From: Marmoricola endophyticus
Lineage (GTDB): Bacteria; Actinomycetota; Actinomycetes; Propionibacteriales; Nocardioidaceae
Assembly (NCBI RefSeq): GCF_014644415.1
Contig: NZ_BMKQ01000001.1
Coordinates: forward strand, 772,569 to 836,568
DNA: 64,000 bases
Reading direction: 5' to 3'
The notes under the pieces: model-generated
What the model saw: the letters and a program-made list of their open reading frames with translations, nothing else
Told to the model about the DNA's origin: nothing
Databases searched by the model: none
Shown here: piece after piece, positions 13,316 through 58,619 of the stretch
Numbering within the stretch: position 1 is the first letter of the stretch
Layout of the letters: each line of letters begins with the position of its first letter
Program-made: the position numbers and the translations under genes

Positions 13316-14512
13316 ATGGACCGCCTTCGCGTCGACGTGCTGAGCAAGGAGTACCCGCCCGAGGTGTACGGCGGCGCCGGCGTCCACGTCGCCGAGCTGG
13401 TGCGCGCGCTGCGCGCCCGCGCCGACGTCGACGCGTGCGTCCACGCCTTCGGCGCCCCGCGCGCCGAGCCGGGCACGACGTCGTACCCGGACCTGGCGGA
13501 GCTGGCCGGCGCCAACCCCGCGATCCGCACCCTCGGCGTCGACCTGTCGATGGTGGCCGGGTGCGAGGGGACCGACGTCGTCCACTCGCACACCTGGTAC
13601 GCCAACATGGCCGGCCACCTCGCCTCGCTGCTGCACGACGTGCCGCACGTGGTCAGCGCGCACAGCCTCGAGCCGATGCGGCCGTGGAAGGCCGAGCAGC
13701 TCGGCGGCGGGTACGCCGTGTCCAGCTGGGCCGAGCGGACGGCGTACGAGGCGGCCGCCGGGATCATCGCGGTCAGCGCGGCGATGCGCGAGGACGTGCT
13801 GCGCAGCTACCCGTCCGTCGACCCCGCCAAGGTCACGGTCGTGCACAACGGCATCGACACCGACGACTGGGCCCCGGTGGCGAACCCGGACCGGGTGCGC
13901 GAGCTCGGCGTCGACCCGGACCGCCCGGCGGTGATCTTCGTCGGGCGGATCACCCGGCAGAAGGGGCTGCCGCTCTTCCTCCGCGCCGCCGCTCAGCTGC
14001 CGCCCGACGTGCAGCTCGTGCTCTGCGCCGGCGCTCCGGACACCCCCGAGATCGAGGCCGAGGTGCGCGGGCTGGTCGACGGGCTGGCCGCCTCGCGCGA
14101 CGGTGTGGTGTGGATCGGCGAGATGCTGCCGCGCCCCGACGTCGTGGCCCTGCTGACCGCGGCGACCGTGTTCGTCTGCCCGTCGATCTACGAGCCGTTG
14201 GGGATCGTCAACCTCGAGGCGATGGCCTGCGAGACCGCGGTCGTGGCCACCGCGACCGGCGGCATCCCCGAGGTGGTGGTCGACGGCGAGACCGGGTGGC
14301 TGGTGCCGATCGACCAGGCCCAGGACGGCACCGGCACCCCGCTGGACCCCGATGCGTACGTCGCCGATCTCGCCGCCGCGCTGACCGACGCCGTCAGCGA
14401 CCCGCAGCGCGCCGCGTCGTACGGCCGGGCCGGCCGCGCCCGCGCGCAGCAGCACTTCAGCTGGCCCGCCATCGCCGAGCGGACGCTGGAGGTCTACCGC
14501 TCCCTGCGGTGA
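13316..14512 (+). CDS. glgA: GT4 glycogen synthase / maltose-1-phosphate synthase
   Basis: Glycosyltransferase of 398 aa with a GT-B fold. The N-terminal Rossmann domain has LSKEYPPEVYGGAGVHVAEL, the donor site is VGRITRQKGLPLFL, and the C-terminal motif is YEPLGIVNLEAMACE, with the nucleotide-contacting glutamates. It matches the actinobacterial GlgA group, which in mycobacteria is GlgM and joins ADP-glucose to glucose-1-phosphate to give maltose-1-phosphate for the GlgE pathway. Which product is made cannot be decided here. The ATG at 13316 is preferred to a TTG 9 nt upstream, which would overlap the -10 spacer. Confidence 0.88.
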   Translation: MDRLRVDVLSKEYPPEVYGGAGVHVAELVRALRARADVDACVHAFGAPRAEPGTTSYPDLAELAGANPAIRTLGVDLSMVAGCEGTDVVHSHTWYANMAGHLASLLHDVPHVVSAHSLEPMRPWKAEQLGGGYAVSSWAERTAYEAAAGIIAVSAAMREDVLRSYPSVDPAKVTVVHNGIDTDDWAPVANPDRVRELGVDPDRPAVIFVGRITRQKGLPLFLRAAAQLPPDVQLVLCAGAPDTPEIEAEVRGLVDGLAASRDGVVWIGEMLPRPDVVALLTAATVFVCPSIYEPLGIVNLEAMACETAVVATATGGIPEVVVDGETGWLVPIDQAQDGTGTPLDPDAYVADLAAALTDAVSDPQRAASYGRAGRARAQQHFSWPAIAERTLEVYRSLR

Positions 14513-14544: not shown

Positions 14545-14599
14545 GGTCTCGACGTCCTCCCTCGCTAGCGCTCGGTCGGGCTCGACCACCTACGGCTAG
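14545..14599 (+). repeat. Left 55-bp type A copy, identical to 15242-15296
   Basis: This 55-bp element (GGTCTCGACGTCCTCCCTCG to CACCTACGGCTAG) is base-for-base identical to 15242-15296. The two copies are in direct orientation and bracket the 35-bp array plus the GIY-YIG nuclease gene. Copies elsewhere in the window differ at several positions, so these two were duplicated or homogenised recently. Confidence 0.9.
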
Positions 14600-14847
14600 G
14601 TGGTCGAGCAGCGAGCGCCAGCGAGCGCGGATGGGTGGTCGAGCAGCGAGCGCCAGCGAGCGCGGATGGGTGGTCGAGCAGCGAGCGCCAGCGAGCGCAG
14701 ATGGGTGGTCCAGCAGCGAGCGCCAGCGAGCGCGGATGGGTGGTCGAGCAGCGAGCGCCAGCGAGCGCAGATGGGTGGTCCAGCAGCGAGCGCCAGCGAG
14801 CGCGGATGGGTGGTCGAGCAGCGAGCGCCAGCGAGCGCGTCGAGACC
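14599..14847 (+). repeat. Seven-copy 35-bp tandem array of the reverse type A element
   Basis: Units start at 14599, 14634, 14669, 14704, 14739, 14774 and 14809, each beginning GGTGGTC[G/C]AGCAGCGAGC. Units 4 and 6 carry GGTCCAG instead of GGTCGAG, and the unit before each ends GCAGATG instead of GCGGATG. Units 3-4 and 5-6 thus form a duplicated 70-bp pair. The last unit runs into the normal end CGTCGAGACC. Units abut without spacers. The array fills most of the 416-bp gap between glgA and the GIY-YIG gene; the remaining ~80 bp show nothing recognisable. Confidence 0.93.
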
Positions 14848-14928
14848 CGGTGAGACGAGAAGCAGCCTTCTCCACAGGCCGCGACCGACCTCTTCCGCAC
14901 CGCTGCGCGGCAGACGATCGTGAAGCGC

Positions 14929-15231
14929 ATGGCCTGGGTCTACATCGTCCGCTGCTCGGACGGCTCCTACTACGTCGGCAGCACCCTCGACCTCGATCGG
15001 CGCATGGCTCAGCACAACGCCGGTGAGGGCGCGGCGTACACCCGTACACGTCGACCGGTGGTCCTCGTGTGGTGCGAGCACCACGACGACGTGGCCAACG
15101 CGTTCGCCTCGGAGAACCAGATCCAGGGCTGGTCGCGAGCGAAACGCGAGGCCCTCATCGAAGGGAGGATGCGAGACCTACCAGGGCTCGCGTGGGGTTA
15201 CTCCGGCGAGCGGCGAGACGGGGCGACCTGA
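14929..15231 (+). CDS. GIY-YIG family endonuclease (UPF0213/YhbQ type)
   Basis: Single-domain protein of 100 aa. VYIVRCSDGSYYVGST (4-19) is the GIY-YIG core, with the two tyrosines and the glycine; RR near 24-25 and the metal-binding glutamate at 62 (ASENQIQGWSRAKREALI) complete the active site. Members cut DNA with one Mg2+; physiological roles of stand-alone proteins are mostly unknown. Here the gene lies between identical 55-bp type A repeats and next to a 35-bp tandem array, which suggests a link between nuclease and repeat, like REP-associated RAYT enzymes (inference). The ATG at 14929 was preferred to GTG 14920 because the family starts M-x-W-[VY]-Y. Confidence 0.9.
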   Translation: MAWVYIVRCSDGSYYVGSTLDLDRRMAQHNAGEGAAYTRTRRPVVLVWCEHHDDVANAFASENQIQGWSRAKREALIEGRMRDLPGLAWGYSGERRDGAT

Positions 15232-15241
15232 GCCGGGTCGT

Positions 15242-15359
15242 GGTCTCGACGTCCTCCCTCGCTAGCGCTCGGTCGGGCTCGACCACCTACGGCTAGCCGG
15301 TCGAGCAGCGATCGCCAGCGTGATGCCCTGAGCCTGTCGAAGGGAGCGACGTCGAGACC
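15242..15359 (+). repeat. Right-flank type A composite with a CCCTGAGCCTGTCGAAGGG module
   Basis: The first 55 bp (15242-15296) repeat the left flank exactly. They are followed by a reverse copy (GGTCGAGCAGCGATCGCC) interrupted by GCCCTGAGCCTGTCGAAGGG (about 15325-15343), a second palindromic module called type B here, and closed by GACGTCGAGACC. The composite starts 10 nt after the GIY-YIG stop codon. Confidence 0.85.
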
Positions 15360-15412: not shown

Positions 15413-16387
15413 GTGACGTCGTACCTGCTGCTGCTCGCGCCGTCGGCCAACCGGGTGTACGCCGAGCAGGCGCCGGCGCTGGCGGCGGCGGAGCTGCGGC
15501 TGCTGTGCCCGGAAGTCACCGCCGTGGCCCCGGTCCAGGTCGCCGGGGTCGACTACCTCGCTCTCGAGGCACCGGAGCAGCCGGCGCTGGGGACGATGTC
15601 GAGCCGTTTCGCGCTCTTCCGGCGCGAGGGTGACCTGCTGGCGCCGGTGCCGGTGCACGTCCCTGACGTGCTGGACGACGACCTGGTGAGCATCCCGAAA
15701 TACCCCGGCAAGACGAACGAGCAGCTCACCCGGCTGCTGCTCAACGTGACGCTCGCCGCGGTCGACCGCGCCCCCGGCCCGCGTCGTGTGCTCGACCCGA
15801 TGTGCGGACGCGGGACCACGCTGACCACGGCGCTCACCCTCGGCCACGACGCGACCGGCGTCGAGCAGGACGAGAAGGCGCTCGACGCAACGGCGGCGTT
15901 CCTCAAGACCTACCTGCGCCGCAAGCGGCTCAAGCACCGGGCCGACGTCACGCCGGTCCGCCGCGACGGCCGCAAGGTCGGCCGCCGCCTCGACGTCGAG
16001 GTCACCCCGGCAGAGCGCACGCAGACGCTCAGCATCCTCTCCGGCGACGGTCGCCGCTCCGCCGAGCTGCTCGGCAAGCGCAAGTTCGACGCGGTCGTCA
16101 CCGACGCGCCGTACGGCGTGGTGCACGGCGGCCACACCGGCGAGGGCCGCGAGCGCTCCCCCGAGGCTCTGCTCCGCGAGGCCCTGCCGGTCTGGGCCGG
16201 CCAGCTGGTCGGCGGCGGCGCGCTCGGCATCGCCTTCAACACCCTCACCCTGCCGCGCGCGACGCTCGCCGCCATCACACGCGATGCCGGGCTCGACGTC
16301 CGCGACGACGGCCCGTGGCTCGACCTCGCGCACCGGGTCGACGCCTCGATCCACCGCGACGTGCTGGTGGCGACGCGTCCGACGTAG
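15413..16387 (+). CDS. TRM11-like SAM-dependent methyltransferase
   Basis: Protein of 324 aa. The N-terminal ~100 residues are variable and could bind RNA. The Rossmann methyltransferase domain has motif I LDPMCGRGTT (127-136) and the catalytic motif TDAPYG (230-235), a DPPY variant used by N-methylating enzymes acting on exocyclic amines. The layout matches the UPF0020/TRM11 group of tRNA guanine-N2 or related RNA methylases; the substrate is inferred only. GTG start with TAGGCT 8 nt upstream and no Shine-Dalgarno sequence. Repeat elements lie on both sides. Confidence 0.75.
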   Translation: MTSYLLLLAPSANRVYAEQAPALAAAELRLLCPEVTAVAPVQVAGVDYLALEAPEQPALGTMSSRFALFRREGDLLAPVPVHVPDVLDDDLVSIPKYPGKTNEQLTRLLLNVTLAAVDRAPGPRRVLDPMCGRGTTLTTALTLGHDATGVEQDEKALDATAAFLKTYLRRKRLKHRADVTPVRRDGRKVGRRLDVEVTPAERTQTLSILSGDGRRSAELLGKRKFDAVVTDAPYGVVHGGHTGEGRERSPEALLREALPVWAGQLVGGGALGIAFNTLTLPRATLAAITRDAGLDVRDDGPWLDLAHRVDASIHRDVLVATRPT

Positions 16388-16468: not shown

Positions 16469-16642
16469 GGTCTCGACGTCCTCCTTCGCTGGCGCTCAGT
16501 CGGGCTCGACCACCTCGGTGCGTCGCTCGCCGGGTCTCGGCGTCCTCCTTCGCTGGCGCTCAGTCGGGCTCGACCACCTCGGCGCGTCGCTCGCCGGGTC
16601 TCGACGTCCTCCTTCGCTGGCGCTCAGTCGGGCTCGACCACC
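16469..16642 (+). repeat. Three tandem type A elements with 64-bp period
   Basis: Copies of a 46-bp element lie at 16469-16514, 16533-16578 and 16597-16642, separated by an almost identical 18-bp linker (TCGG[T/C]GCGTCGCTCGCCG). The last copy ends 4 bp before the glyA stop codon. The 259-bp gap between the convergent methylase and glyA genes holds nothing else recognisable. The same element recurs with one change at 31270. Confidence 0.92.
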
Positions 16643-16646
16643 GACC

Positions 16647-18101
16647 TCAGGCCAGGTCGAGTCCCGGGTAGAGCGGGTGCTTGTCCAGCAGCTCGTCGAT
16701 CCGCGCGTGCGTACGGTCGGCGACCCCGTCGGCGGTGACGTACGACGCCTTCGAGGGCCCGCCCGCCTTGGTCGTCCCGGGCTGGGTCTGGGAGAGCACG
16801 TCGACGATCATGTCGGCCACCTCGTCGAACTCGGTCCCCCCGAAGCCGCGCGTGGTCAGGGCGGGTGTACCGAGGCGGATACCCGAGGTGTACCAGGCGC
16901 CGTTCGGGTCGGCGGGTACCGAGTTGCGGTTGGTGACCACCCCGGCCTCGAGCAGCGCGGTCTCGGCCTGGCGCCCGGTCAGGCCGAAGCCGGAGACGTC
17001 GAGCAGCACCAGGTGGTTGTCGGTGCCGTCGGTGACCAGCTTCGCCCCTCGGGACATCAGGCCGTCGGCCAGCGACTTGGCGTTGTCGGCGATGGCCTGC
17101 GCGTAGGTGCGGAACCCGTCCTGGCGCGCCTCGGCCAGCGCCACGGCCTTCGCCGCCATCACGTGCGAGAGCGGCCCACCGAGCACCATCGGGCAGCCGC
17201 GGTCGACGCTGGAGGCGAACTCCTCCTGCGCGAGGACCAGGCCGCCGCGCGGACCGCGCAACGACTTGTGCGTCGTCGTGGTCACGACGTGGGCGTGCGG
17301 CACCGGGTCCTCGTCCCCGGTGAAGACCTTGCCCGCAACCAGACCGGCGAAGTGCGCCATGTCGACCATCAGCGTCGCGCCGACCTCGTCGGCGATCTCG
17401 CGCATCTTCGCGAAGTTCACGCGGCGCGGGTACGCCGAGTAGCCGGCGACCAGCACCAGCGGCTTGAACTCGCGCGCCTTGGCCGCGACCGCGTCGTAGT
17501 CGAGCAGGCCCGTCTCGGGGTCGGTGCCGTACTGCTGCTGGTGGAACATCTTCCCCGAGATGTTCGGGCGGAAGCCGTGCGTCAGGTGGCCGCCCGCATC
17601 GAGCGACATCCCGAGCAGCCGCTGGTCGCCCATCTCGCGGCGCAGGCCCTCCCAGTCCTCGTCGGTGAGCTCGTTGACGTTCTTCATGCCCTTCTCGGCC
17701 AGCGCGGGCGCCTCGATCCGGTGGGCGAGGATCGACCAGAAGGCGACGAGGTTCGCGTCGATGCCCGAGTGCGGCTGGGCGTAGGCGTACGGGGCGCCGA
17801 ACAGCTCGCGGGCGTGCTCGGCCGCGAGGGCCTCGACGGTGTCGACGTTCTGGCAGGCGGCGTAGAAGCGGTGCCCCACGGTGCCCTCGGCGTACTTGTC
17901 GCTGAACCAGGTGCCCATCGTCAGCAGCACGGCAGGTGAGGCGTAGTTCTCGCTGGCGATCAGCTTCAGCGAGGCGCGCTGGTCGGCCAGCTCCTGGCGG
18001 GTGGCCTCGGCGATCCGCGGCTCGACGGAGGCGATCACCTCCAGCGCGGCGTCGTACGCCGTCGAGGCGGCCTTGGCGTAGGGCAGCGGGGCATCGCTCA
18101 T
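16647..18101 (-). CDS. glyA: Serine hydroxymethyltransferase
   Basis: PLP enzyme of 484 aa; it interconverts serine and glycine with tetrahydrofolate. [31 protein letters not shown] and the PLP-lysine motif [16 protein letters not shown] are all present. It is longer than the ~420-aa E. coli enzyme because of inserted segments and an extended N-terminus, as in the longer actinobacterial paralogue group. TAGTCT lies 7 nt before the ATG, so the mRNA is probably leaderless. It diverges from the sulfate-assimilation operon; serine feeding cysteine synthesis makes that a sensible neighbour. Confidence 0.95.
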
Positions 18102-21852: not shown

Positions 21853-21876
21853 GGAGCCGGCGCCTGCCGCACGAGG

Positions 21877-22114
21877 GGTCTCGACGCCGCTCCCTCGCTG
21901 GCGCTCGGTCGCTGCTCGACCACCGGTGGTGACGGTGAGCGAGCAGCGTCAGAACCCCCTGACCCACGCTCGCCCCACGAGAGGTCTCGACGCCGCTCCC
22001 TCGCTGACGCTCGGTCGCTGCTCGACCACCGGTGGTGACGGTGAGCGAGCAGCGTCAGGTCTTTGTGACCCGCCGGTGGTCGAGCAGCGAGCGCCAGCGA
22101 GCGACGTCGAGACC
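21877..22114 (+). repeat. Type A direct repeat (76 bp x2) plus reverse copy
   Basis: 21877-21952 and 21983-22058 match except for one base in the CTGRCGCTCGG segment. Each contains the element from GGTCTCGACG to CTCGACCACC and then GGTGGTGACGGTGAGCGAGC. A reverse copy (22073-22114, ending GACGTCGAGACC) follows. This accounts for nearly all of the 311-bp gap between the chelatase gene and cynS. Confidence 0.9.
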
Positions 22115-58413: not shown

Positions 58414-58619
58414 GGTTTCGACGCGCTCGCTGGCGCTCGCTGCTCAACCACCTGCTCATGGCGAACCAGCCCACGGTGGTCGAGCCCAACGCGACCCAGG
58501 TGGTCGAGCCCGACCCAGCCCAGGTGGTCGAGCCCGACCCAGCCCAGGTGGTCGAGCCCAACGCGACCTAGGTGGTCGAGCCCGAAGCGAGCGCAGCGAG
58601 CGAGGACGTCGAGACCACC
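58414..58619. repeat. Type A element plus five 24-bp tandem units
   Basis: A forward element (58414-58452, GGTTTCGACGCGCTCGCTGG to GCTCAACCACC) is followed by GGTGGTCGAGCCC-type units at 58475, 58499, 58523, 58547 and 58571. Units 1 and 4 read AACGCGACC and units 2 and 3 GACCCAGCC after the common start, an A-B-B-A order. The fifth unit runs into a full reverse element ending GACGTCGAGACCACC. The array fills the divergent gap between hrpA and the aldo/keto reductase gene. Confidence 0.92.

Follow-up and report, generated by a model that had tools for sequence, protein, structure and literature searches.

Small GIY-YIG nuclease genes nested between inverted hairpin repeats: a candidate REP-like nuclease-repeat system in bacteria

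Introduction

In the stretch of DNA analysed here and in many other bacteria, a short gene for a GIY-YIG nuclease stands between inverted copies of a hairpin repeat, an association whose existence and lineage specificity we regard as practically certain. Taken as a whole, the evidence makes it likely that gene and repeats form a nuclease-repeat system that resembles the RAYT/REP ‘REPtron’ and is built on a GIY-YIG enzyme. Small GIY-YIG nucleases are probably a second class of repeat-spreading enzymes, parallel but non-homologous to the RAYTs, for at least two superfamilies of hairpins: the GAG...CGA hairpins found in Actinomycetota, Chloroflexota and others, and, in Proteobacteria, the CGTC-tagged REPs that have long lacked a partner enzyme, dRS3 of Neisseria among them.

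The intergenic DNA of many bacteria is full of short palindromic repeats. For REPs with a GTAG head the partner enzyme is known; for the GAG...CGA hairpins no partner enzyme was found in open-licence papers. Nested as it is between inverted copies of such genome-scattered repeats, the small GIY-YIG nuclease is a candidate for the missing enzyme that acts on, and probably spreads, several ‘orphan’ families, the CGTC and the GAG...CGA repeats among them. The question of who spreads REPs becomes directly testable with a hairpin of 22 nt and a protein of 100 aa, and a likely role emerges for the many uncharacterised proteins that are annotated as ‘GIY-YIG nuclease family protein’. No report linking bacterial GIY-YIG genes to REP-like repeats was found in open-licence papers.

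The GIY-YIG gene and its repeats in the window

The window, the whole 64,000-nt stretch that was analysed (G000:C1:772569-836568 of a 3.66-Mb genome), carries the GIY-YIG gene at 14929-15231 on the + strand, with an ATG at 14929, a stop at 15231 and an alternative GTG start at 14920. Its 100-aa UPF0213-like product matches PF01541 (E=6e-20), and residues Y5, Y15, G17, R25, H29 and E62 are invariant in an alignment of 20 relatives; the conserved Tyr, Tyr, Arg, His/Tyr and Glu by which the GIY-YIG superfamily is recognised are all present. The nearest solved structures are those of UPF0213 proteins (E=1e-13), SLX1 is weakly related by sequence, and the named relatives of the protein in GTDB species genomes come most often from Nocardioides. 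As judged from these residues and matches, the protein is a UPF0213-like member of the GIY-YIG superfamily and a predicted nuclease.

The layout of the locus, as drawn by the first-pass annotation, was borne out in each of its parts: a gene between two identical 55-bp repeats, a tandem array on its 5′ side and a composite repeat copy on its 3′ side. The upstream 55-bp copy (14545-14599, - strand), whose unit at 14545-14588 reads GGTCTCGACG...CTCGACCA, is identical to the downstream copy (15242-15296, - strand), and the match between them continues to 79 bp at 96% identity. The array (14599-14847, + strand) consists of seven opposite-strand half units (GGTGGTCGAGC...) with a 35-bp period, comprises 6.9 copies of 35 bp with 96% matches over 14599-14839, and ends in a complete unit at 14811-14847 whose GTCGAGACC end points towards the gene. 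The GGTCTCGAC end of the downstream copy likewise faces the gene, so that this copy is inverted relative to the unit at 14811-14847. The composite 3′ element (15242-15359, unstranded) is an inverted pair of units that beats 200 of 200 shuffles in folding (z=-4.95), and embedded in it is a second type of hairpin, CCCT-GAGCCTGTCGA-AGGG (15326-15344, + strand), the 17-nt core of which has 17 copies in the genome.

Between this element and the next repeat cluster stands a methyltransferase-like gene (15413-16387, + strand; PF01170, E=1.3e-5) that is matched in none of the 23 other genomes of the genus at E<=1e-30 and is possibly a passenger of the repeat-bounded block. The third cluster (16469-16642, - strand; 2.7 copies of 64 bp) closes a 2.1-kb block between glgA, which ends at 14512, and glyA, whose stop lies near 16647. 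Elsewhere in the window, positions 58448-58609 hold GGTGGTCGAGCCC half units in a tandem array (24 bp x 5), and positions 21866-22058 a 106-bp tandem duplication that includes one repeat unit.

The repeat is dispersed throughout the genome. A 22-nt pattern with 18 fixed bases, allowing at most two mismatches, has 104 matches in the 3.66 Mb (reversed-pattern control, 0), and a looser unit pattern, TGGTYGAG-N2-30-TCGARACC, has 210 against 0 in its control. Most units belong to an inverted pair, with a gap that is typically 4-15 bp (30 partly overlapping loci of this genome), and one inverted doublet folds far better than its shuffles (z=-8.8). Two of the five GIY-YIG-domain genes of this genome are short, the other three domains being parts of open frames longer than 600 aa; the second short gene (G000:C1:712529-712813) is 65% identical to that in the window and has a diverged form of the window repeat on either side.

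Bracketing of GIY-YIG genes in other bacteria

A protein search of 58 genomes returned 26 matches with a patchy distribution over 19 genomes. Wherever both flanks could be read, the GIY-YIG genes of these relatives were bracketed, with a different repeat in each species among the flanks listed; the repeats include GGTTTCGACAAGCTCAACCAGC, CGTCTCGGCAAGCTCGACGACC and GGGCCCTTCGACAAGCTCAGGGACC as well as long-stem forms such as GGTTTCGAGACGGTTGCTGCGCAACCTCCTCAACCACC. In G019 and in G028 there are two GIY-YIG paralogues, and the repeat differs from one paralogue to the other. At G035:C1:1392027-1392732, two genes with the same predicted protein lie 445 bp apart, each between repeats, and this locus is a tandem duplication of the whole gene-plus-repeats unit.

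The wider set comprised the best 80 loci from GTDB species genomes, mostly from Actinomycetota, with a few from Chloroflexota and one from Bacteroidota. When the two 350-bp flanks of a gene were compared, their best inverted match scored at least 14 for 64 of 79 genes, as against 14 of 948 random placements at the same loci. When a sequence-agnostic hairpin, N4-GAG-(3-40)-CGA-N4′, was scored, it occurred on both sides of the gene at 69 of 80 loci (86%) and in 40 of 960 control windows (4%), so the excess of flanking repeats for which the first-pass annotation had proposed to look is present at the GIY-YIG genes of relatives; at least one side carried the hairpin at 79 of the 80. Among all choices of dinucleotides at the GA/GA positions, GA/GA (with its own complement) gave 430 hits and the next choice 70. 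The nearest upstream unit runs from GAG to CGA in a ratio of 64:13 and the nearest downstream unit in the opposite sense (52:19), which places the GIY-YIG gene between inverted repeats. Other ORFs at the same loci have hairpins on both sides in 3.5% of 710 cases, as counted from crude gene calls; only this control rate is used from the ORF-based comparison, since its GIY-YIG rate of 24% is an underestimate, the ORF calls in GC-rich DNA running past the GIY-YIG gene itself. Overall, bracketing is seen in four phyla, by repeats of unrelated sequence.

Among proteobacterial genes, two from Methylobacterium are flanked by the GAG...CGA hairpin with a TCCT stem and one from Sphingomonas by the same hairpin with GGCT/CCCT stems. 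A second GIY-YIG subfamily, searched for with a Shinella query, has CGTC-tagged REPs on both sides at 10 of 15 loci, compared with 6 of 690 control placements; these ten come from Sphingobium, Novosphingobium, Shinella (two), Sinorhizobium meliloti, Rhizobium, Neorhizobium, Neisseria, Azospirillum and Aeromonas, and the repeat in Neisseria is dRS3. The proteobacterial bracketing repeats have the same form as the known CGTC-tagged REPs (a CGTC head, a stem of 8-9 bp, a loop of 4-5 nt and a CCA tail), whereas the window's own repeat lacks this form and belongs to a different family. A 2013 survey of CGTC-tagged REPs, dRS3 of Neisseria among them, found no associated transposase gene (PMC3733652), whereas here such REPs bracket GIY-YIG genes. 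Bracketing was not seen for Bacillus yazA or for the genes of Cupriavidus, Variovorax, Acidiphilium, Sphingomonas paeninsulae, Rhizobium tumorigenes and Planktothrix.

Repeat abundance and gene presence

Abundance was taken as the sum of matches to three unit patterns in each of the 58 genomes. The median was 100 in genomes with the gene (n=19) and 4 in those without it (n=39; p=1e-9), and the difference persisted within the family only (p=4e-7) and within the genus only (p=2e-4), all p-values treating related genomes as independent. Equal repeat frequency in genomes that lack the gene, which the first-pass annotation had named as an outcome that would count against its proposal, was therefore not observed. 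Two predictions drawn from the flanks of the gene ahead of the counts held: the CCCT type is most abundant in G020 (36) and G037 (130), every other genome having at most 17, and the CGTC-stem type in G004 (70) and G019 (150), the next count being 18. Counts are low in G010 and G015, where the flanking repeats fall outside the three patterns. Four genomes (G011, G013, G017 and G050) have 16-41 unit matches and no short GIY-YIG gene, holding only GIY-YIG domains in long open frames; gene loss or assembly gaps could account for this, and it is possible that their repeats outlived their enzyme. Dispersed units were present in all of 24 further genomes taken from the GTDB scan, with 7 to 225 in each.

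A RAYT as the driver of these repeats was rejected, because no Y1/RAYT transposase (PF01797) was found in the window's genome or in 23 congeners. A replication-strand bias of the repeats, an idea that came from an apparent orientation switch in G020 and a strand-grouped listing for G019, was dropped after the full G019 list and sampled GC skew showed no bias in that genome. The G020 copies of CCTGAGCYTGTCGAAGG are nearly all on the + strand until 3.38 Mb and on the - strand from 3.397 Mb, a switch that is possibly an effect of replication direction, in a genome with too few independent clusters and sites to decide it.

Covariation in the hairpin stem

Covariation was assessed in 25 distinct examples of the core GAGCYTGYCGA that were picked blind to their stems. 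Pairing reaches 96% at every one of the four stem positions next to the core, compared with 53-72% for shuffled partners (none of 5000 shuffles reaches 96%), and pairing ends at the fifth base. These shuffles ignore relatedness, yet two-sided changes occur at all four stem positions, and the stems found include GGTC, GGTT, GATC, GATT, TGTT, CGTC and CCCT, among others. An earlier, looser core, GAG-N5-CGA, gave a clear signal at two stem positions only, which is explained by dilution with chance matches. The pattern suggests a folded form with a 4-bp stem, two facing GA steps, a G-C pair and a loop. The fold chosen by an energy model for the bare 22-mer is not this covarying one, and equal covariation would be expected of a duplex palindrome that a dimer binds.

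Filled and empty sites

Sorting the 80 loci by shared neighbours gives 61 groups, and only 10 of 3160 pairs of loci share neighbours on both sides. In the congener G022, glgA is directly followed by glyA, at the place where the window has its 2.1-kb block with repeats at start and end; glgA was used for this empty-site search, the neighbouring methyltransferase gene having given no match in any of the 23 congeners. Azospirillum lipoferum 4B has the GIY-YIG gene, with REP doublets on both sides, between sufB and sufC, and in three sister Azospirillum species the sufB-sufC gap is only 88-130 bp and has no REP. In Sphingobium, two plasmids without the gene have a single CGTC palindrome in its place, and a third plasmid has none. 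This one-palindrome allele resembles the joined outer halves of the two REPs, so the junction fits insertion into a repeat and deletion between 8-bp direct repeats alike. No clear target duplication was present at the two filled/empty junctions compared. Together, these comparisons show that the gene comes and goes along with its repeats.

Comparison with known systems

Use of the GIY-YIG catalytic domain in the spread of selfish DNA is familiar from homing endonucleases of the I-TevI type and from Penelope-like retroelements. The window protein has this catalytic domain too, but its system includes no intron, separate DNA-binding domain or reverse transcriptase and is instead tied to high-copy short hairpin repeats. 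Homing endonucleases reside in introns or inteins, or stand free by their target site, and cut alleles that lack their gene; the single palindrome at the empty Sphingobium site fits such behaviour, and deletion fits it too. A classical insertion sequence has a transposase between terminal inverted repeats and makes a target-site duplication, whereas here the inverted repeats are present, the enzyme is not of a transposase type and no clear duplication was seen at two sites. The UPF0213 or YhbQ-YazA-like proteins share fold and catalytic residues with the window protein; Bacillus yazA lies in an ordinary gene cluster without repeats, and no link between these proteins and dispersed repeats was found in the open-licence literature.

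The closest parallel is with RAYT genes, which are reported to be always flanked by two inverted REPs and to coevolve with them, the abundance of REPs following the RAYT and 3′ gene ends being captured between REPs (PMC2817692). Both systems have one enzyme gene with a palindromic repeat on either side, the two in inverted orientation, high-copy cognate repeats whose abundance follows the presence of the enzyme, paralogue-specific repeats and inverted doublets. A 3′ gene fragment between REPs is a further likeness, seen here in Sinorhizobium meliloti (L227), where CGTC REPs enclose such a piece of a GIY-YIG gene upstream of and next to the intact gene. The enzymes differ in that a GIY-YIG nuclease takes the place of the Y1/HUH tyrosine transposase (IS200/IS605-like, TnpA-REP), so this is not a RAYT system, and the repeats differ in having GAG...CGA cores where RAYT REPs have a GTAG head. 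By analogy, then, the GIY-YIG/repeat system appears to work like RAYT/REP on an unrelated enzyme.

Proposed mechanism and alternative explanations

The small GIY-YIG protein would recognise the folded repeat, as an extruded cruciform or a single strand, and would nick or cut it; host repair or recombination would copy repeats to new sites, usually as inverted doublets, and homogenise them, and at times the gene would travel with the repeats on either side of it. The hydrolysis of DNA by GIY-YIG enzymes involves neither rejoining nor strand transfer, so any such spread would be homing-like, by break plus repair, in place of the strand transfer of a transposase. Stem covariation and the filled and empty sites favour action on the repeats plus mobility, and we hold it very likely that the small GIY-YIG enzyme acts on its repeats; that these spread through host repair has about an even chance of being correct. 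Sequence alone cannot tell cutting, copying and homogenising apart.

The REP-type repeat/nuclease system that the first-pass annotation had proposed draws its support from the bracketing at 69 of 80 loci and the abundance medians of 100 and 4. Since intergenic repeats are numerous, any gene may have one close by, and flanking could in principle reflect chance or composition, with repeats that merely fill gaps; bracketing on both sides at 86% of loci, against 4% of random windows and 3.5% of other ORFs, and its recurrence in four phyla with unrelated repeats leave this explanation next to no probability. It is also highly improbable that the repeats owe their spread to some other enzyme, with the GIY-YIG gene as a passenger that prefers them as insertion sites: one Sphingobium allele does have a single palindrome where another has REP-gene-REP, but the genus has no Y1/RAYT, and repeat abundance tracks the GIY-YIG gene and matches the type that flanks it.

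Two further alternatives deserve more weight, and both remain unlikely. A structure-specific housekeeping nuclease might sit near repeats to resolve cruciforms or repair the breaks that repeats cause, without spreading them, as the kinship with UPF0213 and, weakly, SLX1 and the ordinary gene cluster around Bacillus yazA would allow; such a role leaves unexplained the placement between inverted copies, the patchy distribution over many sites and the different repeat of each paralogue. Rather less probable is a simple mobile element, IS-like and bounded by the repeats, of which the dispersed copies would be passive miniature derivatives, a view that differs from the REPtron-like reading mainly in mechanism. 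The gene does lie between inverted repeats, patchily and at many sites, and the doublets look like miniature elements; yet there is usually one gene copy to tens or hundreds of repeats, the flanks are often arrays or doublets instead of single clean ends, and the two compared junctions gave no clear target duplication.

Other palindromes also occur beside GIY-YIG genes. At two loci of Microbacteriaceae (L120 and L133), both flanks of the gene share GTTTCACGTGAAAC, which resembles the parS chromosome-partition site. In Sinorhizobium sp. C101 (L231) and Spirosoma (L165), the genes lie near GCTGGATTCCTGTGACAAGCACAGGAATGAGG and TTTGTCATCCCGAGGAACGAGGGATCTTC, respectively, palindromes that hint at further classes of repeats.
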